A DNA stretch of 49,231 nt from the NCBI GenBank assembly GCA_012839895.1, contig DUML01000010.1, positions 1 to 49,231 of the forward strand, in the 5' to 3' direction. The notes under the pieces were generated by a model. That model was not told where the DNA came from. It saw nothing but the letters and a program-made list of their open reading frames with translations, and made no database searches. Numbering within the stretch: position 1 is the first letter of the stretch; the number at the start of each line of letters is the position of its first letter. The translations under genes were made by a program, and so were the position numbers. The DNA is from Peptococcaceae bacterium (lineage in GTDB: Bacteria > Bacillota > Desulfitobacteriia > Desulfitobacteriales > Syntrophobotulaceae). This document shows positions 15,522 to 32,325 of this stretch, piece after piece.

Positions 15522-16031
15522 TCATCGCCAAAGAATTTTCAAGTAGAGCACAGTTTCCGTTGGCTTTAAATCCAGTTCCTCAATTAAAAACGGATAAGTT
15601 TTAAGATTTGTTAGCTCATTTATGGCTTTAAACACCGGCTCCCGATCCCCTTGGACATAAACCTTAACAACAGCTTCGTTTAATTCGCCGTCTACACCTT
15701 CGGTAAGATGACTGATGGTTATTTCTTCAAATGTCAGGGAGTTAACCGAAAAACAATCTTGCAAAGCGGAAAGAGCGGCAGGAAGTTGAAAACCTTCCGG
15801 AATTAATGCTATTCGTTCTTGTACTTCACTCTCCAATAAACTTATTTTTTGCTCTAAAGAAACTTTGGCTGTTAAATCGTTATGTATTTTTTGGCTTAGG
15901 GGAAACGTTACAGCTACAGAAGTTATTATCCCCAAAAATAATACAGCAAGCAATCCGCCAAGAATAATTTTTTGGACTGAAAACTTATCAAGGGCTCTGC
16001 CAATTTGCCCTTCGAGCTTAAAATTAATCAA
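15522..16031 (-). CDS. pilO: PilO/GspM-like pilus alignment protein, locus A
   Basis: This 169-residue bitopic protein has a short cytoplasmic N-terminus, one membrane helix (about 21-44, IILGGLLAVLFLGIITSVA), a coiled coil (about 48-75) and a small ferredoxin-like C-terminal domain. This is the PilO pattern. It would pair with the PilN part of the upstream fusion and link the inner platform to the growing pseudopilus. The gap to the upstream gene is 12 bases. Confidence 0.8.
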   Translation of the reverse strand: MINFKLEGQIGRALDKFSVQKIILGGLLAVLFLGIITSVAVTFPLSQKIHNDLTAKVSLEQKISLLESEVQERIALIPEGFQLPAALSALQDCFSVNSLTFEEITISHLTEGVDGELNEAVVKVYVQGDREPVFKAINELTNLKTYPFLIEELDLKPTETVLYLKILWR

Positions 16032-16043
16032 AAAATTCTACCC

Positions 16044-17390
16044 CTATCTTTGAACACTGACTGCAAAAGCAATCCTTCCATTTTGATACTTATAATCAGT
16101 CAAATAAGGTTCTCGCCAACCCTCGGCTGTCAAAGCGGCAATAACTTGCGTAATATCAGCATTTTCAGAGCATTCCGCCCAAAGGTAAAGCGTCCTTTGC
16201 TTATAATTAAGGCGCATAAGTTGCAAATTAGAAGGCATTAAGGCTATAGCTTTTTGTATTCTTTCCAAATCACTGCTGGAAAGCTCTTGTTTGTTTCGCC
16301 ATTCTTTCCAGGCCATCTGGGCTTCATCGCTAAGCAACTTTTCCTGCTTGCTTTGCAGAAGAGCAAGCTCTGCTTGCAGAGAAAGATAGTCTTTAGCTAA
16401 AGGGGCCCAGAGTAAAATCACCGTTAAACCACATATAAGCCCAAAAGCTCCAAGTATGGCTACGATTGCTTTAGCCTTTTGGCGACGGCGGAAGATATTA
16501 TAGAAATCTACATTGAGTTTTGCAGTAATTCTCAATTTCTCACCCAAAAGGGCATAAACTTTAAAACCCTGTTCTTTAACGAGCTGAGCCCAATTCCCAT
16601 TGAGGTTCTCCGGCATATTTAAGCGTTGTTGAACAAAGCCGGCCTTTTGTAGCAATTCCGCCACTTTTTCGGTAAGCATACTGCTGTCAGTGCTTAAATA
16701 CTCCACAGGAAGGTCCAAATCATTTAAACCCAAATAAACATGATACTTATTAAGCTCAACTTGATCTATGTCTAATTCCCTGATTATTTCCGGATATCCA
16801 TCCCTGTAGAAAACTAACTGGATTCTATTCTCCTCTACCTCTTGAAGATGGAGAATTTTTTTCTTGCCACTTAATTCCAAGAATTTTCCTAGAGCATTTG
16901 CCGCATATTCCACTCCTTGCAAGACATACCCTGCCCTTTGCAAGCAATTGGCATAGGAAGCAATAACTTCTTTTTTGGCGGCAGTAACTCGTACAGTGAG
17001 ATACTCCGGCTGTTTTTCTTCTTTAACCCCGTAGGAATAAACCAAACCATCCGCTAAAAGAGGAACCTCATGTTGAAGAAAATAATGCAAAGCGGAGTCC
17101 CTTTCTCGGCGCTTGATCCAGGGTAATTTAAATTCCCTGTAAAAACCGTTTTCCAAAGGAATCAACAAATACGCAGGAATTTTTCCTTTCCTCTTGAGCT
17201 GAGAGCGGTAAGAACATAAGACATCCTGCAACACAGTAAATTTGGAATTATCCCCCCGGCCAGGAAGCTTTAAAGGATAAATATGAAAAGAAATCTGAGG
17301 GGGTCTCTTACCCCAGTTTGATTGCCAAGACAGGAACCGCACTTCCTGCTCCGTTATTTCAATAATTAAAATTTTTCTTCCCTTAACCAT
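16044..17390 (-). CDS. PilM-PilN fusion (GspL-like), locus A
   Basis: This 448-residue protein combines a cytoplasmic actin-like PilM domain (about 1-290, with NALGKFLEL), a basic stop-transfer stretch RRRQKAK, one membrane helix at about 306-328, and an external PilN-like coiled coil and small domain (about 330-448). In type IV pili PilM and PilN are separate proteins, while GspL of type II secretion joins them as here. It anchors the assembly ATPase to the membrane platform. It lies between the prepilin peptidase and pilO genes, 10 and 12 bases apart. The N-terminal domain is divergent, so PilM ligand residues for the PilN N-terminus may be lost. Confidence 0.75.
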   Translation of the reverse strand: MVKGRKILIIEITEQEVRFLSWQSNWGKRPPQISFHIYPLKLPGRGDNSKFTVLQDVLCSYRSQLKRKGKIPAYLLIPLENGFYREFKLPWIKRRERDSALHYFLQHEVPLLADGLVYSYGVKEEKQPEYLTVRVTAAKKEVIASYANCLQRAGYVLQGVEYAANALGKFLELSGKKKILHLQEVEENRIQLVFYRDGYPEIIRELDIDQVELNKYHVYLGLNDLDLPVEYLSTDSSMLTEKVAELLQKAGFVQQRLNMPENLNGNWAQLVKEQGFKVYALLGEKLRITAKLNVDFYNIFRRRQKAKAIVAILGAFGLICGLTVILLWAPLAKDYLSLQAELALLQSKQEKLLSDEAQMAWKEWRNKQELSSSDLERIQKAIALMPSNLQLMRLNYKQRTLYLWAECSENADITQVIAALTAEGWREPYLTDYKYQNGRIAFAVSVQR

Positions 17391-17400
17391 AATTCAATCC

Positions 17401-18156
17401 TTAAGTCAAGAAAAATAATATGTCCCTAAGTTTGCTACCGAATAATAGCACGATCACCGCCCCGCCAGCCAAAAAAGGCCCAAAAGGAATGGGGTCTTTG
17501 AAATCCTTCTTGTAGACAATTATTCTTAAGCCCCCAATTATAACTCCTAACAGGCTGGCGAAAAACACAGCACTGAAAATTCCAGGGACTCCAAGATACA
17601 AACCTAAAGCAGCCACAAATTTCACATCGCCCCAGCCCATGCCTTCGGGATAAAAATAGGCAATGAGGGTAAAGACCCCGCCGGCTGTCCCCGCTCCCAG
17701 CAAACTCAGCCAAAATAGGGGATCTTTAGTCAACAAAGGATTGATTAACCCTATCAGGACTATTCCTAAGACTAAAACATCAGGCAAACGAAAAGTAGCA
17801 ATATCAATGAAAGCCAAAGCGATTAAAAAAGCGACAAAGGCCAAATCCAAAATAATTCCTATCATGTTTCGTTCCGTACGGAATAAATAAACCAAAACAA
17901 ATAGCAGTCCGGTTAAAATCTCCACCGCCGGATATCTTAAAGATATTTTAAGGCCACACCTACTGCATTTCCCCTTCAAGAGCAAAAAGCTTATTACTGG
18001 AATCAGTTCCCAAAAACGCAGGATATGACCACATTCCGGGCAATGGGAACCCGGACTGACAATCGACTCCCCCCGGGGAACCCTCCAGATTACCACGTTG
18101 AGAAAACTTCCGAAGACAAGACCAAGCACACCAAAGAATAATACATATAAAAGCAT
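17401..18156 (-). CDS. pilD: Prepilin peptidase/N-methyltransferase
   Basis: This 251-residue polytopic membrane enzyme has a zinc-binding loop with two CxxC pairs (CPECGH and CSRCGL, about residues 38-66), N-terminal FGSFLNVVIWR, and the two catalytic Asp in DIATFRLPD and GWGDVKF. It cleaves class III signal peptides after Gly and methylates the new N-terminus. It is the only prepilin peptidase in the window, so it likely processes the pilins of both loci. The gap to the upstream prepilin is 23 bases. Confidence 0.95.
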   Translation of the reverse strand: MLLYVLFFGVLGLVFGSFLNVVIWRVPRGESIVSPGSHCPECGHILRFWELIPVISFLLLKGKCSRCGLKISLRYPAVEILTGLLFVLVYLFRTERNMIGIILDLAFVAFLIALAFIDIATFRLPDVLVLGIVLIGLINPLLTKDPLFWLSLLGAGTAGGVFTLIAYFYPEGMGWGDVKFVAALGLYLGVPGIFSAVFFASLLGVIIGGLRIIVYKKDFKDPIPFGPFLAGGAVIVLLFGSKLRDILFFLT

Positions 18157-18179
18157 GATTTTCTAAAACTCTCCTTAAT

Positions 18180-18641
18180 TTATAGCGAAGACCACAGGAC
18201 ATTACTCAAAGTGCGGTCATATACAACCACTTCGGCCGCAGATCCGTCGCTGGTCAGGTAAATCATTATCACATGCTGAGGGGGGTCCAAATTAGTTCCG
18301 GAACTAAGGGCAGCTATCCCAAATCCTTTTTGCTCCTCGGGGACAGCCTGTTGAGTGACACTTCGATCCAACTTGTGAAAATATTCAGGGATAAATCCTG
18401 AGCCGCTGATTGCTCCCTCTTCGGCCTTTAAATCACCCAAACGAGGATAAAAGCCATGCTCGATCTGATAACGGTCCAAAGCAGCTTTAATTTCTCTTCC
18501 CGTCGCAATATCGGCTCTTTCCCTGGCTGCTTCCGAGCTGGCTGATAGTCTGGGCAAAGCTACGGCTGCCAGTATCGAGAGAATGACGACCACCAACATC
18601 ACTTCCAGTAAAGTAAACCCTTTCTCCTCTTTAAAGTTCAT
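18180..18641 (-). CDS. Prepilin, GspG/PilA-like, locus A
   Basis: This 153-residue prepilin has a 7-8-residue leader ending KG, cleavage before FTLLEVMLVVVILSILAA, Glu at position 5 and a hydrophobic helix of about 20 residues. KAALDRYQIEHGFYP is typical of GspG-like major pseudopilins. It lies between pilC and the prepilin peptidase and may be the main subunit of locus A. The ribosome site is GGGGGG, five bases upstream. Confidence 0.88.
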   Translation of the reverse strand: MNFKEEKGFTLLEVMLVVVILSILAAVALPRLSASSEAARERADIATGREIKAALDRYQIEHGFYPRLGDLKAEEGAISGSGFIPEYFHKLDRSVTQQAVPEEQKGFGIAALSSGTNLDPPQHVIMIYLTSDGSAAEVVVYDRTLSNVLWSSL

Positions 18642-18660
18642 GTTTGCCCCCCTTTCTTAA

Positions 18661-19830
18661 TTACCTAATTTGGGTACTAACGTCAAAAATGGGTAAAAGA
18701 ACACCAATTGCTACAAAACCCACTATCCCAGCCATTCCCACTATTAAAACAGGCTCTAAACGGCTGTTAAAGCGCTGGATTTTTTCTTCCAATTCTCGGC
18801 CAAACATAACTGCTAAATAAAGCAGCATTTCGCTCAGTCGCCCGGCTTCTTCAGCAACCTCCAGCATCTTTATAGCTTCAGCGGGAAAATAATTACACCT
18901 GCCAATAACAAAAGACAACCTTTGCCCTTCCTTTACTGCCAGTTTTAACTCACCAATAATTTTGCTCAGCTCTCCGTTATTATCAAAAGTATCCTCCAAT
19001 AATTCCAAAGTCTCAATGAGCGGCAAGCCGACCTTTAATAACCTGCCAAAAAGCGCACAAAATTGCCGCAAATCTTTATAGTGTCTGATTTTCTCCGTTC
19101 CGGGGAAAATCCAAGCTTTGGGCGCCCCTGGCCAGATTTGCTTCAGAAGAATCATTATTAGAACCAAGCCCAACCACAGGGGCATACTTTCGCCAATGAA
19201 AAATAATAATTCGGTAATTAGGGGCAATTCGGCTTGGAAGCTTTCAAAAATTGATTGATACATAGGTAAAACTACAATGCTAAGGAAATAAATAATTAGC
19301 AGGGCAGCGCCAAGGAGCAATAAAGGATAGAAGAGAACTGTTTTTATTTTTTGTTCCAAAAAATATTCTTCATCTAATTGGTCGGCTGCCTCCAGCAAGC
19401 ATTCAGCTAAAGTTCCGCTTTTTTCTCCCGCTTTAACCATGGCTTCCAGAAAAATACCAGGTTGGGGAGCAAATTCTTTCAGCCCCCAAGAAAAGTCTTT
19501 ACCGGCAAGGACAGCTTGCTTAACTCTTAGCCAGTGGTTTTTACGGGAAGTATTTGTTTCCTTATCTCCAATAATATCCAGAATGGTAAGCAGAGGTAGA
19601 CCTGCTTCCAACAGAATACTAATCTTGCGCGTTATTTTGGTCCAATATGATTTTGCTTGGCGAGAATTAAGTCTGACAATTAATTTCCCTAATACTGACC
19701 GGCGAATGCTAACAGGATATAAATTTTGCTGGCGCAAATACTTAAGAACTAAAGCAGCTTCTTTTTCTTCTCGCACTCCCCGCAAAGTTTGACCTTTATT
19801 ATCAAGGGCTTTCCATTTCCAATGTGCCAT
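18661..19830 (-). CDS. pilC: PilC/GspF platform protein, locus A
   Basis: This 389-residue inner-membrane platform protein has two GspF domains (about 58-180 and 260-385) and three membrane helices (about 160-180, 205-230, 360-385). Motifs include GKDFSWGL, MVKAGEKSGTL and MLEVAEEAGRL. It seats the ATPases PilB and PilT and guides pilin entry. It starts 5 bases after pilT. Confidence 0.93.
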   Translation of the reverse strand: MAHWKWKALDNKGQTLRGVREEKEAALVLKYLRQQNLYPVSIRRSVLGKLIVRLNSRQAKSYWTKITRKISILLEAGLPLLTILDIIGDKETNTSRKNHWLRVKQAVLAGKDFSWGLKEFAPQPGIFLEAMVKAGEKSGTLAECLLEAADQLDEEYFLEQKIKTVLFYPLLLLGAALLIIYFLSIVVLPMYQSIFESFQAELPLITELLFFIGESMPLWLGLVLIMILLKQIWPGAPKAWIFPGTEKIRHYKDLRQFCALFGRLLKVGLPLIETLELLEDTFDNNGELSKIIGELKLAVKEGQRLSFVIGRCNYFPAEAIKMLEVAEEAGRLSEMLLYLAVMFGRELEEKIQRFNSRLEPVLIVGMAGIVGFVAIGVLLPIFDVSTQIR

Positions 19831-19835
19831 TTGCC

Positions 19836-20864
19836 TTATCCTTGAAGCCTTTCCCGCGCCAACTGAGGAGATATAAGTCCTTTTTTCATCAGTTCTTCCA
19901 CAGCTTTTTCCATAGTCTGCATCCCAAGCTGGCTGCTGGTTTGAATTACATTTTTAATTTGGTGCGTTTTCCCTTCCCGAATCATATTCCGAACTGCCGG
20001 AGTAGCCAAAAGAACTTCGTAAGCTGCAACCCTACCGGGCTGATTAAGTAGAGGGAACAACTGCTGGGCTACTACCCCTTGCAAGACAGACGCCAATTGA
20101 ACCCGGATTTGGTTCTGCTGATGGGGTGGAAAAACATCGATAATCCTGTCAATTGCTTGAGCGGCATCATTGGTATGAAGGGTACTGAAAACCAAATGTC
20201 CAGTTTCCGCCGCAGTAACAGCCATAGCTATTGTTTCCAGATCTCTCATTTCACCGATGAGTATAATATCGGGATCCTGACGCAAGGCTGCTCTTAAAGC
20301 ACTTGCGAAAGACTCGGTATCCTGACCGACTTCTCTTTGATTAACCAAGCATTTGCGATGCTGGTGCAAATATTCGATAGGGTCTTCGATGGTAATAATA
20401 TGGCCGGAACGGGTATTATTAATTAAATTAATCAGAGAGGCAAGTGTTGTGGATTTGCCACTGCCGGTAGGGCCGGTTACTAAGACCAGGCCGCGATGCA
20501 AGGTAGTAAAATTGGTGACAGCAGCCGGCAACCCTAATTCTTCCGGGGAGCGGATATGAAAGGGGATAAGTCGCATCACAATCCCGATACTCCCCCTTTG
20601 GCGAAAAATATTAACCCTGTATCTACCCAGCCCAGCAATACCGTAAGAGAAATCTAATTCTCCCTTTTCTTCAAATACTCTCTGTTGTTTATTATTGGTA
20701 AGTACATTAAGGAAGGCAGCCAAATGTTCCTTTGTTAAAGTTTCAGTGCCTAAAGCTTTCATTTCGCCATCTATTCTAAAGACTGGAGGACTGCTTACGG
20801 TAAGATGCACATCTGAAGCTCCTACTTCCCCCGCCTTTTTTAACAGTTCTTCCAACAACACCAT
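19836..20864 (-). CDS. pilT: Twitching-motility/retraction ATPase PilT
   Basis: This 342-residue hexameric ATPase has Walker A GPTGSGKSTT, Walker B DPDIILIGEMRD, His-box sequences (STLHTNDAAQAIDRI) and the retraction-specific motif AVRNMIRE (usual AIRNLIRE) near residue 280. It depolymerises type IV pili. The start is the second ATG of two overlapping ones; GGAGG lies seven bases before it. It is the only PilT-type gene in the window. A 140-base gap with no obvious gene lies between pilB and pilT. Confidence 0.96.
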   Translation of the reverse strand: MVLLEELLKKAGEVGASDVHLTVSSPPVFRIDGEMKALGTETLTKEHLAAFLNVLTNNKQQRVFEEKGELDFSYGIAGLGRYRVNIFRQRGSIGIVMRLIPFHIRSPEELGLPAAVTNFTTLHRGLVLVTGPTGSGKSTTLASLINLINNTRSGHIITIEDPIEYLHQHRKCLVNQREVGQDTESFASALRAALRQDPDIILIGEMRDLETIAMAVTAAETGHLVFSTLHTNDAAQAIDRIIDVFPPHQQNQIRVQLASVLQGVVAQQLFPLLNQPGRVAAYEVLLATPAVRNMIREGKTHQIKNVIQTSSQLGMQTMEKAVEELMKKGLISPQLARERLQG

Positions 20865-21004
20865 ACATTGTCCTCCCTGGTTTCATGATATTTCAAAATA
20901 TGTAGCTAATTAACCTCATAAAATCGGGATTAATAATGTGACAACAATTTCATACGTATCATCTAATAATCTAAACTTAATTATTAAATATTCTAGTAAA
21001 AATA

Positions 21005-22681
21005 TCAAATTCCTGCTATTAAACGCATAGCTTCTTCCAAGGAAGTATAGCCTTCAACAACTTTCAACAATGCATCTTCTTGCAGAGTTATCATCCCCAA
21101 GGCGCGGGAAGTTTTCTCCAACAAGGCGGAACTGCTTTTTTTAAGCACCAGTTCTTTAATTTCCTGATTATAAGGCAAGAATTCATGAATACCAATCCTA
21201 CCGAGATAACCGGTTCCACGGCACTTTGGACAACCTTTGGCGCCATAAATAACTTCAACGTTTTGCAAATTAAAGGTTTCTTTCATCTGGGCTGAGACCG
21301 GGCGAGGCTCACGGCAAAAGGGACATAACTTGCGTAAAAGCCTTTGGGAAATTACTCCGCAGATCGAAGCAGCTACTAAATAAGGGTCAATATCCATATC
21401 TAAGAGGCGAGCCAAAGCCTCGGCCGCAGTATTGGTATGTACAGTAGACAGTACCAGATGGCCGGTAAGAGCTGCAGCCGTTGCAATCCGAGCGGTTTCC
21501 TTATCTCGGATTTCCCCGACCATAATAATATCCGGGTCCTGCCTCAAAATTGCTCTAAGCCCTGCGGCGAAATCAAGCCCTATCCTGGTGTTTACTTGAG
21601 CCTGGTTTACCCCGGGCAGCCTGTACTCAACCGGGTCTTCAATGGATACAATGTTTAAGGTTTCAGACTGCAGTTCGCGGAGCAAAGCATACAATGTAGT
21701 GGTTTTGCCGCTTCCTGTTGGACCGGAAACTAGAATTAAACCAAAAGGCAGCCGTAGAAGTTTTCTTACTCCCTCTTCCACTTCTGGGCGCATTCCTAAT
21801 TCAGCCAGGGATCGTCTGGCCGTCTCCTGATCCAAAATCCTTGTAACTATTTTTTCCCCATAAACTGTTGTCAAAGAAGAAACCCGGATATCGACTGTTT
21901 TGGAAGCAACCTCCAGCATAATCCTACCATCTTGAGGTAGGCGCCTCTCAGTAACATCCATCCCGGCCATCAGTTTAAGCCTGGCAACAACACTCCTAGC
22001 CATCCCCAAAGGCAAGGTTGCCTTAACTTCCAAAAGGCCGTCAATTCGAAACTTGATCTTAAAGCAATTCTCCTGGGGTTCCCAATGTATATCACTGGCT
22101 TGTTCTTTTATTGCTTGACGGAATAAGGAATCCACTAATCTAATAACCGGAGCTTCCCGGCCGGCATCCTCCTCACTAATTTTCCAACTGCTATATGAGG
22201 CCAGGGTAATTTCGGAATCCGGAGTGGAATTATTAACAGTAAAACAATTCCGAATAGCTAATTTAATCTCCTCTGCTCCCGCCAGGTATGGTTCCACCTG
22301 ATACCCGGTGTAGAAACTGACATCATCCCAGGCTTTGCGGTTAACAGGATTAGCCATGGCCACCAAGAGCCTTCCTTCTTCTAGGGCATAAGGGATTAGG
22401 GTATATTTTAGAGCTAACTCTTCGGGGATAAGCAAAGCTATGTCCGGCTTTATTTGCCAAGAAGACAAATGAACTCTCTTAATGCCAAGGAAGGCGCTTT
22501 TTTGATTCAAAACTTCCTCTTCTGGCAAATAGTCCGGCAAAAGATCGTCTATAGCCTCCCCCAAGCTAATTTTCTTCTGTAATACTTCTTTATCTTCCGG
22601 CGATATTAGCATTTGCAGCAATAAATAGTCCAAAAATTCTATCGCCCATATATCCTGGTTAACATTTTTTTGTGCAAGCAT
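21005..22681 (-). CDS. pilB: PilB/GspE assembly ATPase, locus A
   Basis: This 558-residue ATPase has a GspE N-terminal (MshEN-like) domain (about 60-160), Walker A GPTGSGKTTT, Walker B DPDIIMVGEIRD and the zinc-binding tetracysteine CPFC...CPKC (about residues 461-492). It powers pilin polymerisation. The start codon shares a base with the upstream stop (TAATG). It is a paralog, not a copy, of the PilB at 36251-37948. Confidence 0.95.
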   Translation of the reverse strand: MLAQKNVNQDIWAIEFLDYLLLQMLISPEDKEVLQKKISLGEAIDDLLPDYLPEEEVLNQKSAFLGIKRVHLSSWQIKPDIALLIPEELALKYTLIPYALEEGRLLVAMANPVNRKAWDDVSFYTGYQVEPYLAGAEEIKLAIRNCFTVNNSTPDSEITLASYSSWKISEEDAGREAPVIRLVDSLFRQAIKEQASDIHWEPQENCFKIKFRIDGLLEVKATLPLGMARSVVARLKLMAGMDVTERRLPQDGRIMLEVASKTVDIRVSSLTTVYGEKIVTRILDQETARRSLAELGMRPEVEEGVRKLLRLPFGLILVSGPTGSGKTTTLYALLRELQSETLNIVSIEDPVEYRLPGVNQAQVNTRIGLDFAAGLRAILRQDPDIIMVGEIRDKETARIATAAALTGHLVLSTVHTNTAAEALARLLDMDIDPYLVAASICGVISQRLLRKLCPFCREPRPVSAQMKETFNLQNVEVIYGAKGCPKCRGTGYLGRIGIHEFLPYNQEIKELVLKKSSSALLEKTSRALGMITLQEDALLKVVEGYTSLEEAMRLIAGI

Positions 22682-28014: not shown

Positions 28015-28761
28015 TCACTTTGGCTTATGGTCTTTCATTTCTTCAGTCAGTTTTTGCACAGCCTTTTTCTCAATGCGTGAAACGTAAGAACGGGATATTC
28101 CCAACAGTTTAGCGATTTCTCTTTGGGTTTTTTTAGGGCTGTTCATCAAGCCAAAACGCAATTGAATAACCATTCGTTCCCGGGGAGTTAAACACTTTAG
28201 CTTTTCCAGAACTTTTTTCTGTTCAAATTCACTTTCTACCTGGTCAGAAATGGCATCAGGATCTGTACCCAAAACATCAATCAGATTAATACTATTTCCT
28301 TCCTTATCAGTCCCAATGGGATCATACATTGAGACTTCACCCCTGGACTTTTTAAGGGAACGCAAATACATCAAAATCTCGTTTTCAATGCAGCGTGCCG
28401 CATAAGTGGCCAAACGAGTCCCCTTCTCGGCATTGAAGGTATTAATCCCTTTAATTAGACCTATAGTGCCAATGGAAATCAGGTCATCACTGTCTTCACC
28501 TGTTCCGTCATATTTTTTAACTAAATGAGCTACCAAGCGCAAGTTATGCTCAATTAGTTTATTTCTAGCGTTTTCCACCAGAACCGGATCTGGCGGTTCT
28601 TTAGTCTCATCTTTATAATCGGCCAAAATCTGAAGATATTCCGCTTCTTCCTTTTCTCCCAAGGGCTGAGGAAAAGCGTTATTATTAATATATGAAACCA
28701 GCAGGGTTATCCCTTTAATTACAGATAAAGCTACTCCAACCAAGAAAACCTCAGTAAGCAT
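28015..28761 (-). CDS. sigK: Pro-sigma-K, late mother-cell sporulation sigma factor
   Basis: This 248-residue protein starts with a hydrophobic pro-sequence (about 1-20) before VSYINNNAFPQPL, the region where SpoIVFB cuts pro-sigma-K in B. subtilis. Region 2 has NLRLVAHLVKKYDGTGED and SIGTIGLIKGI; region 4 has TQREIAKLLGISRSYVSRI. The gene is uninterrupted, with no skin-type prophage. Compared with B. subtilis it carries an acidic insertion of about 15 residues (DYKDETKEPPDP) before region 2. It drives late spore-coat genes. Confidence 0.95.
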   Translation of the reverse strand: MLTEVFLVGVALSVIKGITLLVSYINNNAFPQPLGEKEEAEYLQILADYKDETKEPPDPVLVENARNKLIEHNLRLVAHLVKKYDGTGEDSDDLISIGTIGLIKGINTFNAEKGTRLATYAARCIENEILMYLRSLKKSRGEVSMYDPIGTDKEGNSINLIDVLGTDPDAISDQVESEFEQKKVLEKLKCLTPRERMVIQLRFGLMNSPKKTQREIAKLLGISRSYVSRIEKKAVQKLTEEMKDHKPK

Positions 28762-28955: not shown

Positions 28956-29498
28956 TTAGGGAGAAGACTGCTCATGATAAAAATAAGCGATAAAATGCAT
29001 ATTTGCCGACACACCCTCTGTTCCTGGACGAATACTGATATTGTCCAAAGCAAAAATATAATCTGTATTACGCAATAGGCTCCTAACCAGAGCATACACT
29101 TGATGCTCCGGCCCTTTACAAGTAAAGTCAATACCCATGGTATAATAACCGTCTTCTTCCTGTAAAGGACTATAATTAAGGCTTAAGGGGCTTAAGCCAA
29201 ATCTCTTAGCCATATTATAAATAGTTAGCATCATATCAGGCTTGTCGGCATAGATAGGGATTTCCTGCTCAAGTTTAGCAGCTTGGGTGTTTAACACAAC
29301 CACTTGGCTTTTAAGGCTGGAAAGAATCTTGGAATTATCCTCCAATTTTTGTAGATAAGCTTCCCTAGCAGTAAGGTAGGCAGTCTTATCCTTGAGAATA
29401 CTTAATTGAGGTAAAAATAAGTATTGGACATAAGCGTAAAGCACCCCAAATAGGACTAAAGCCAGAAGAATTAGAATTTGATTCTTTTCTTTACTCAT
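28956..29498 (-). CDS. pilO: PilO-like pilus alignment protein, locus B
   Basis: This 180-residue protein has a membrane helix (about 9-28), a coiled coil (about 35-78) and a ferredoxin-like C-terminal domain (about 90-175), as in PilO. It follows pilN by 11 bases. It presumably forms the PilM-PilN-PilO alignment complex on the inner membrane. Confidence 0.85.
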   Translation of the reverse strand: MSKEKNQILILLALVLFGVLYAYVQYLFLPQLSILKDKTAYLTAREAYLQKLEDNSKILSSLKSQVVVLNTQAAKLEQEIPIYADKPDMMLTIYNMAKRFGLSPLSLNYSPLQEEDGYYTMGIDFTCKGPEHQVYALVRSLLRNTDYIFALDNISIRPGTEGVSANMHFIAYFYHEQSSP

Positions 29499-29509
29499 GC
29501 TTTCTACTC

Positions 29510-30055
29510 CTAGCGAGCCATTTTTAAGGTTAAGTTTAAAGTTTTAACCTCATCAGTCAAAGAAACAGAATTAAGGTCAAAATCTACGAATAAACCGGAA
29601 TCCCGAAAGCTTGCCCAAAGTTTTGCCACATCAACAGGCCCGGGCAAAACTAAACCAATTTGCACCGAATAGTCGGCATTTAAATTATAAGAAGTTATTA
29701 CTGTGCCAGCAGGCAAAAGCGCGGTAATTTGTTCAAGAACGATTTGTGGGTCTTTTGCTCTAGCTTCAGCTGAACGGAGGAAGCTTTCCATCCCGGCTAT
29801 TTCAGCCTGCAGCCGTTCAAGCTCCAAGAGAACGGCTTCAACTTCATGATAATCCTTGATCCTTCCTTCAACTTTAACCAAGTCATGCTGTAGTTTATAC
29901 TGCCAAAGCCAAGGAAAAACACCAACTAAAATTACTAAGATCAAAAGCATGGCAAAGAATATATTCCCTAACCTGCGCTTCTGGGAAGCCTGCCGCTTAC
30001 CACTTTGTTCTATTCTCCACCTTTGGGCATAGTTTAATTGTGTTCTCTCTTTCAT
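29510..30055 (-). CDS. pilN: PilN-like pilus assembly protein, locus B
   Basis: This 181-residue protein has a basic N-terminus (QASQKRRLGN), a membrane helix (about 30-50), a coiled coil and a small external domain, as in PilN. The cytoplasmic N-terminus is about 28 residues and lacks an obvious copy of the conserved INLLP motif that PilM normally binds. It lies 9 bases after pilM. Confidence 0.82.
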   Translation of the reverse strand: MKERTQLNYAQRWRIEQSGKRQASQKRRLGNIFFAMLLILVILVGVFPWLWQYKLQHDLVKVEGRIKDYHEVEAVLLELERLQAEIAGMESFLRSAEARAKDPQIVLEQITALLPAGTVITSYNLNADYSVQIGLVLPGPVDVAKLWASFRDSGLFVDFDLNSVSLTDEVKTLNLTLKMAR

Positions 30056-30064
30056 CTAATCCCT

Positions 30065-32155
30065 CTAATCCTCCCGTAAGGCTAAACCAAAAAGACTTCC
30101 GTACCTTTGCCATTCAAGCGATTCAACTTTACCTTTAGCCACGACCTCCGGTTTCCATCCCTCCGGAAAGCCGACAATAGTCTTAACACCCAAGCTCTCT
30201 GCCAAAACCTCGGCTAAATAGGGAAAAGTACAGTAGTCACCGGTTAAATAAATGGCGCTAACTCCCGAGCCATAATGACGGGCGGCAAAAAAACTAAGCA
30301 ATTCCGCCAAGGTTGTCAAGACCGGTTCCAAACAGCTTTCCAATTGCTCTTGGAGATTTCCTGTTTGCTGAAAAGCCTTGTCTCCGGTCAAACTTAAGAG
30401 AGTCTTATCTATATCCAACGTATCGGAAGAACTGTCCCTTTGTCCGTCTCCATGATGTTCAAGTTCCTTGGATAAGTCCGGGTTATTTTGAGACACCTCC
30501 AACTCTTGTTGAGGGACATCAATCACCAAATTGTGTTTCAGTTTTTCTTTAGGGACAAAAAGGTCTTCCAGGGTAAATTCTTCGCTATCTGACTTGATGT
30601 AGTTAATATTTAAAGCTGCCGACCGGAAGTTTTCTTGAGAGCGGTCAAGTTGTTCCAAAGGATCCGGTTCATCTGCCGGTTTCGGCGCATCCCTTTGCTC
30701 AGACTGGACATTAACACTTAACCAACCCTCTTGGCTTTCTTGGCTTTCCTTTCCTTCATAGGTCGGCTTTTCCATAGGCAAAGAAAAATCCAACTGCGGC
30801 AAAGTTTTTGTCAATTCGGTAAAAATATCGTCATCCAGACGTAAAAGCTCTTCCTCCAAAGCATCTTGCTCTTGTTGGGACTCTTGGTTTTCCTCCGTCT
30901 TTACCCTCAGCAAGTCTGATTGTTGGGCATAGTCTTCTTCTGGTAAATATTCAAGATAGTTATCACTGTTCCAAGTCTTGATTTCCATTAAATTATCTAA
31001 GTTCTTTGTTCCGAGTTCGCTATCAGCTTCTGAGCCTGTCGGTTCCAACAACTTCTTCAATTCCTCAGATTGCAATGAATTGATTATTTCATCCAAATAC
31101 CGATCCCGTTCTTGGAAAGAAGACGCATCTGAGCTTTCCAAGGTTGCTTCACTTTCAGGCCGGTATTTCTCTTCAGACAAGTATTCCTCTTCCGACAGAT
31201 CTTCCTCATTAGGCTTATATTTCTCTTCAGGCCGATATTCCTCTTCAGAACGGTATTCCTCGCCCTGGTCATTTTTGAGTAAGGGAACATCCTGAGAGGC
31301 TTCTTCAGCTGAAAAAAGCTCAACTTCATCCTCCAGGTAAGAGGAGAGGTATAACTTGATTTCTTCCTCCTCTGCAAGGGCTGTCAAGGCAGTCTTTACT
31401 TCCGGAGAAATCTCTTCTTTTTCTTGAAGCTCAAGGGGTTCTCCCCGGACGTAATTTTTAAGTTGTTCCAAGACTTCCCGACAGGCGAATTCCTGCTCGG
31501 AATAAAGAAAGAACAAACCTTTTTCCAATAGGACAAATTCAACCCTATCCGCATGCATTGAGACAATAGCCAGGTCAGCTGCAAAAGGAGCAGATTCGGC
31601 CTTATTATCGTCCTTGTAGGTGTTACCTGCTACTATGCTGGAATAAAGTCTGGCCAGGCAATCAGCAGTCAAATCAATAACAGCCGGCTCAAAACTGAGA
31701 TACTCACACAATGATAAAATATTCTGCATCCTATCCTTGGGGAAAGCCGCCAAAAGAACATCCATCATCGGTTTTTCCCCGTCTCTGTATTTCCTTAAAA
31801 GTCGATAATCTATAATATAGTTTTGCACATTAATAGTAAAATACTGATCAATATTATTGGTGACCAATTTCTCCAAATCTTCCGCCGCCATCTGTGGAAG
31901 ACTAATCACTCTGGTTATTAGGCCGGAACTGGAAAGAGCCAACTTTAATTTCCTCAATGGGACCCTTTGTCTAGTTAGCCAGTTTTTAATAGCGGCAAAT
32001 TCCTCCGGAGTAAGACTTTGAGCTTCACCCTTCTCATCCTCACGGAACCGATACTCCGCAAGAAACAAAATTTTCATTTTCTGACTCTTCCCTACTGCGA
32101 TCTTGGCCACAGTAATATTTTGCATGGTAAGTACAGCCAGCCATTGTTTTTTCAT
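30065..32155 (-). CDS. pilM: PilM-like protein with a long acidic repeat-bearing insertion, locus B
   Basis: This protein of about 696 residues has PilM/actin-like sequence at both ends: about 1-250 and the last 110 (LLSFFAARHYGSGVSAIYLTGD, with the phosphate-loop-like LTGDYC). Between them lie about 330 residues rich in Glu, Asp, Ser and Gln with no globular pattern, including six tandem six-residue repeats (residues about 300-335). Ordinary PilM is about 350 residues. ATG at 32153-32155 is my choice; a GTG at 32197 adds 14 residues. It is first of the pilMNO operon and is divergent from the minor-pilin block. Confidence 0.75.
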   Translation of the reverse strand: MKKQWLAVLTMQNITVAKIAVGKSQKMKILFLAEYRFREDEKGEAQSLTPEEFAAIKNWLTRQRVPLRKLKLALSSSGLITRVISLPQMAAEDLEKLVTNNIDQYFTINVQNYIIDYRLLRKYRDGEKPMMDVLLAAFPKDRMQNILSLCEYLSFEPAVIDLTADCLARLYSSIVAGNTYKDDNKAESAPFAADLAIVSMHADRVEFVLLEKGLFFLYSEQEFACREVLEQLKNYVRGEPLELQEKEEISPEVKTALTALAEEEEIKLYLSSYLEDEVELFSAEEASQDVPLLKNDQGEEYRSEEEYRPEEKYKPNEEDLSEEEYLSEEKYRPESEATLESSDASSFQERDRYLDEIINSLQSEELKKLLEPTGSEADSELGTKNLDNLMEIKTWNSDNYLEYLPEEDYAQQSDLLRVKTEENQESQQEQDALEEELLRLDDDIFTELTKTLPQLDFSLPMEKPTYEGKESQESQEGWLSVNVQSEQRDAPKPADEPDPLEQLDRSQENFRSAALNINYIKSDSEEFTLEDLFVPKEKLKHNLVIDVPQQELEVSQNNPDLSKELEHHGDGQRDSSSDTLDIDKTLLSLTGDKAFQQTGNLQEQLESCLEPVLTTLAELLSFFAARHYGSGVSAIYLTGDYCTFPYLAEVLAESLGVKTIVGFPEGWKPEVVAKGKVESLEWQRYGSLFGLALRED
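31151..31258 (-). repeat. Six tandem 18-bp repeats inside pilM
   Basis: 108 bases made of six imperfect 18-base units, translating as EYRSEE, EYRPEE, KYKPNE, EDLSEE, EYLSEE and KYRPES. The frame and the acidic-aromatic pattern are kept, so the protein repeat appears to be under selection. Confidence 0.85.
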
Positions 32156-32325
32156 CCGCCCAAATCTCCCGTCCTCTGAGATCATAACCTTTTTCACAAT
32201 TATTGTTGAACTGCAAAGGATAAAAACCTCGGAAAAAAATGGTTCTTCATTTTTCTCTCAGTTTACTATATCTGAGCTCAAAATACAATTCAGGAGATTT
32301 TTTAGTGTTTTGAGGGGAAAAGCTT

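Follow-up and report, generated by a model that had tools for sequence, protein, structure and literature searches.

A lineage-specific, apparently degenerate PilM with a long acidic arm and a conserved putative docking motif

The window analysed here, a 49,231-nucleotide stretch of the genome of a Peptococcaceae bacterium (contig DUML01000010.1), encodes on its minus strand a pilM-like gene (30065..32155, 696 aa) followed by pilN (29510..30055) and pilO (28956..29498), the order expected for the PilM family. pilM is a single unbroken open reading frame that starts at an ATG at 32155 (MKKQWLAV) common to its relatives; an in-frame GTG lies upstream at 32197 and is not conserved. The assignment draws on a match to PF11104 (PilM_2; 44.3 bits, above the curated cut-off of 27), on an alignment of the window protein with 11 relatives and on the fold match of a short homologue. 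The pilN product scores marginally below the cut-off for PF05137 (22.7 versus 22.8 bits) and is identified also by its position and by an N-terminus, KERTQLNYAQRW, that is kept in relatives, and the pilO product matches PF04350 at 30 bits (cut-off 22). After pilO, in the window and in most relatives examined, comes a gene for a SigK-like, sporulation-type sigma factor (28015-28761), a linkage that may be functional or merely historical. A second pilus-type cluster about 6 kb from the first (15522-22681) encodes PilT, PilB, PilC, a prepilin peptidase, a small PilO-like protein and a 448-aa weak PilM match that may be a PilM-PilN or GspL-like fusion. Another PilM-family match in the window genome (C19) was considered as a second PilM of this type and rejected, being a 717-aa FtsA-like protein.

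We searched 60 related genomes for relatives of this PilM and compared two families of the order, the window's own (f1), whose named members are Peptococcaceae MAGs, Gracilibacter sp. and Candidatus Dichloromethanomonas elyunquensis, and a sister family (f2). A PilM match was obtained in 19 of 25 f1 genomes, with no match in the other six; a search of genome contigs with the window PilM sequence alone found no relative, and a search with an alignment as the query found nine loci. The window protein keeps both halves of an actin-like core, an N-terminal block (aa 1-222, 31490..32155) and a C-terminal block (aa 609-696, 30068..30331), both on the minus strand and both recognised from identity within the family, which averages 53% and 54%, respectively, between pairs of f1 proteins. 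An alignment of f1 and f2 PilMs with nine canonical PilMs from their phylum showed that both families lack the subdomain 2B stretch GG..T...AE..K and most of the nucleotide signatures, among them the position of K26, the ATP-binding lysine of Thermus PilM, with f2 proteins retaining part of the second phosphate signature. None of the signatures G[LI]D[IV]G..K, D[IM]GA..T and GG.A is present in the window PilM: DxG..K and D[IM]GA..T have been lost from the N-terminal core, and the GG.A adenosine signature of the C-terminal core is replaced by a TGEYC-like sequence. Since subdomain 2B and the nucleotide signatures are lost while the core fold is kept, and since the protein passes the Pfam threshold and falls below that of NCBIfam TIGR01175 (72.2 bits, cut-off 133), it is, judged by its sequence, a degenerate, lineage-specific PilM rather than a canonical ATP-binding one.

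Canonical type IVa PilMs (Thermus 2ych, Pseudomonas 5eou/5eox, Myxococcus 3jc8) share with the window protein the fold core, the pilM-pilN-pilO gene order and the role of cytoplasmic partner of PilN, whereas the window protein differs from them in the loss of the nucleotide signatures and 2B and in its long acidic arm with a conserved motif. The 2B-less PilMs of the sister family (321-458 aa), roughly 35-45% identical to the window-family PilM over the matched core, have undergone the same loss of 2B and of most nucleotide signatures but possess a short linker and no motif. Several of them (L016-L032) also have an additional acidic segment, variable in itself, around residue 50. The cytoplasmic domain of GspL in type II secretion is an actin-like PilM counterpart with no clear nucleotide role; it is fused to its membrane part and has no acidic arm. 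A PilM-like core fold is supported by the AlphaFold model of a 389-residue short homologue, which matches the PilM structures 5eox, 5eq6 and 2ych at Z 15.5-15.6 (5eox 15.6, 2ych 15.5). FtsA, which has an actin-family fold, ties at Z 15.5, but gene context and sequence here are those of PilM; FtsA is an ATP-binding protein that anchors FtsZ. A PilM that has lost ATP binding may remain functional, since Thermus PilM K26A, which does not bind ATP, retains its binding to PilF and stimulates PilF together with PilN (PMC6325625).

Between the two core blocks, marked by FFLYSE (to aa 222) and LEPVL (from aa 609), lies an acidic, low-complexity insert of 386 residues (aa 223-608, 30332..31489, minus strand), with 27% D/E, 10% K/R and a net charge of about -66, which in the alignment lies where canonical PilM has 2B. 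A sequence-only reading of this DNA had described a PilM whose actin fold is split by an acidic insertion of about 330 residues. The size holds up, as f2 homologues have 18-95 residues at this site, mostly 47-50, leaving an excess of about 330; the segment does interrupt the PilM core, but it takes the place of 2B, and the nucleotide signatures have been lost as well. The accompanying picture of PilM as a usually compact protein is apt for canonical PilM but not within f1, where the comparison of insertion lengths proposed by that reading revealed a segment of 92-515 residues at the identical site in all 14 PilMs measured. Because the same site is occupied in every one of these proteins, the insert is a trait of the family and not an artefact. 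An assembly or annotation error that joined two genes has a practically negligible probability, given that the same architecture recurs in 14 genomes, each in one frame (in two relatives a stop is flagged near one match). No folded domain was predicted in the insert from a shallow alignment, and pLDDT there is mostly 25-45. The two AlphaFold models, of the full PilM and of the 389-aa homologue, were built from nine sequences each and are weak (mean pLDDT 57 in one and 43 in the other), so that low pLDDT in the insert says little about disorder; from the composition together with these values, we infer that the arm is disordered. In searches of open-licence papers, no title or abstract pointed to a PilM with an arm of this kind.

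Within the insert, aa 299-334 (31154..31261, minus strand) consist of six degenerate tandem repeats of 18 bp, each encoding six residues (EEYRSE EEYRPE EKYKPN EEDLSE EEYLSE EKYRPE). The repeats noted in the sequence-only reading are real, for their TRF score of 90 lies above every value obtained when the insert was codon-shuffled 300 times (95th percentile 45, maximum 65). To call them clean was too strong, as the array has 73% matches, a level of likeness between units that disfavours recent slippage, and the proposed slippage-driven variation between strains finds no support in an array that is degenerate and private to one genome: it is absent from the relatives, some of which carry other, unrelated short arrays. 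Being imperfect and unshared, it has the look of a local expansion of some age in the window genome rather than of a clean slippage site. A rival account holds that the whole arm is a neutral expansion, in which the linker left after the loss of 2B grew by local duplication and its one conserved motif is under weak structural constraint. The mean pairwise identity of only 25% among f1 inserts outside that motif, their fivefold range in length and the different private repeats of several family members all suit this account, which is probably right for the insert outside the motif. As an explanation of the arm as a whole it is very unlikely, leaving unexplained seven invariant residues that are encoded with varied synonymous codons across the family.

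Those residues (E526, F527, L529, E530, D531, L532 and P535, invariant among the aligned f1 PilMs) belong to EFTLEDLFVP (aa 526-535, 30551..30580, minus strand), a short linear motif with the family consensus E-F-x-L-E-D-L-[FY]-[VI]-P that we propose as a docking peptide from its invariance, its genome counts and its identity, which averages 87% between pairs of f1 proteins against 25% for the remaining insert sequence. A scan with the strict pattern F-x-L-E-[DE]-L-[FY]-[VI]-P gave exactly one match per genome in 16 f1 genomes, always in pilM and encoded by many different synonymous codons, and a single match among the 58 remaining genomes of the order (74 in total); a reversed control pattern gave 3 matches in the 74 genomes, and adding nine more genomes of the class to the strict-pattern scan left its outcome unchanged. 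The strict pattern is missing from three more PilM-bearing f1 genomes, all of one divergent genus, and the two divergent-genus PilMs examined have the weaker forms EPKLEALFIP and EPELDELFV. In eight f1 genomes, PilM is the only credible protein with an in-frame match to the relaxed pattern FxLE[DE]L[FY], with one exception (FGFEEFY in a 279-residue frame), the other matches being out of frame or in spurious short frames. In one relative (G021; L044:8074-10023, minus), PilM and PilN form one 649-residue open frame in which the motif is kept as DFVLEDLFVP, and a TGA is flagged near the start of the search match. Taken over the family, the conservation profile is, as far as alignments can tell, that of a short docking motif on a tether.

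We therefore favour, at a probability of about 0.62, a lineage-specific, degenerate PilM whose flexible tether presents a conserved docking motif to a putative partner. This PilM has kept its fold core and its position in pilM-pilN-pilO while losing subdomain 2B and the nucleotide-binding signatures, and in one bacterial family a fast-evolving, acidic and probably disordered arm stands in place of 2B. The arm, whose sole family-wide conserved element is EFxLEDL[FY][VI]P, would serve the cytoplasmic PilM platform as a tether and offer the motif peptide to a putative receptor protein, leaving its length and sequence nearly free and the motif constrained. The suggestion of a flexible tether or docking site made from the sequence thus fits the data, narrowed to the ten residues at aa 526-535 and away from the repeats. 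For a docking function, presumably toward a single receptor, a pilus motor or platform protein, PilM itself and the chromosomal ParM (cParM) system are the candidate receptors, although the conservation of the motif could instead reflect a structural role within PilM.

Two special cases of docking can be weighed. The motif may bind inside the pilus machine, to PilB or PilC, to PilN or to PilM itself in a neighbouring subunit, where it would replace contacts of 2B, a possibility that we hold tentatively and at less than even odds. It is consistent with the conservation of the motif in pilM only within f1, with its location in the segment that replaces 2B and with the contacts that PilM makes with the assembly ATPase (PilF in Thermus, PMC6325625) and with PilN. 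The sister family argues the other way: it has pilus genes and an equally reduced PilM, yet its linker is short and the motif is missing, and some 2B-less PilMs must therefore do without the motif; moreover, the PilN N-terminus is conserved in both families, and the motif is therefore no obvious replacement for it. Neither of the two AlphaFold models shows the motif docking on PilM, a result that proves nothing in models of this weakness.

The other special case arises from the one match to the strict pattern outside PilM, an EFTLEDLFVP identical to the window motif in a 139-residue protein of an f2 genome. This protein adjoins a ParM-like actin gene and occupies the place of the adaptor cParR, and the actin is a close homologue of Dh-cParM1 (8x1i), a chromosome-encoded, filament-forming ParM (PMC12270681). 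The motif might accordingly dock on the cParM system, or on a receptor shared with cParR at which pilus platform and cParM meet, though we regard this as unlikely. f2 cParRs carry F[ST]LExLF in the same linker, and in eight f2 genomes this pattern lies in frame only in cParR among credible proteins; the window PilM, for its part, fits the FxLExLF motif of the cParR-type tail. A cParR profile built without the 139-residue protein finds the PilM motif in every f1 insert (shuffle p <= 0.003), and one that includes it ranks f1 PilMs at the top of 398 ORFs. In two lineages, G007 and the divergent genus (G010/G020), PilM and cParR each contain some version of the motif, but most f1 cParRs have no significant motif where PilM has one, and genomes with the motif in both proteins are therefore rare. 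All f1 genomes that have PilM also have cParM, the Dh-cParM1 homologue, at 73-79% identity to the G045 query, and the presence of cParM thus does not discriminate; pilM and cParM are not genetically linked. Furthermore, cParR was reached through the scan with the PilM motif, in which the first hit alone is within chance (control 3/74 genomes), and the core match spans only about five residues, so convergence is possible. What weight is left by these two cases falls to some other protein or to a structural role.

The cParR of Dh-cParMR-1 (PMC12270681) resembles the PilM arm in having a linker with an F[ST]LExLF motif but is not homologous to PilM, having a DNA-binding-type N-terminus and a C-terminal VIGxEDDE. 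This last element is shared by cParR tails across the order, is duplicated in some genomes (L081, L095, L096, L125) and is a candidate ParM-binding tail, of which our searches of the cParM paper (PMC12270681) brought up no description; its strict pattern was found beside cParM and never in pilM, which speaks against PilM docking on cParM in the manner expected of cParR. A second shared element, PilM LLxxLIGLE against cParR LLxxVIGxEDDE, was dropped because the loose form, present in some PilM inserts, is absent from the window PilM and from PilMs with short inserts, and the strict pattern misses pilM. Likeness to the C-terminal peptide of FtsZ and to the sliding-clamp motif was also considered and set aside, as the key residues do not match up. 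A cParM is encoded in the window genome as well (L110:1393-3011, minus, G000:C116); it is 78% identical to the G045 protein and followed by a 170-aa cParR with no clear FxLExLF, and a further cParM-cParR pair lies at L063:170-1695 (+).

As a cytoplasmic scaffold, PilM couples the motor to the pilus platform, and a natural PilM with neither nucleotide signatures nor 2B beside ordinary pilN and pilO offers a test of what those features are for. It is rather improbable, in our judgement, that the PilM arm carries the cParR docking motif and that the pilus platform is physically coupled to a chromosome-encoded actin in f1; if it did, cParM would gain a function outside segregation, and an actin adaptor and a pilus scaffold would, unusually, use one and the same short motif. 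If PilM and cParR had a common receptor, two previously unconnected systems would likewise be linked and a role of chromosomal ParM would become testable. Whichever partner it serves, the conserved motif provides a ten-residue handle for finding the partner of PilM in this family.
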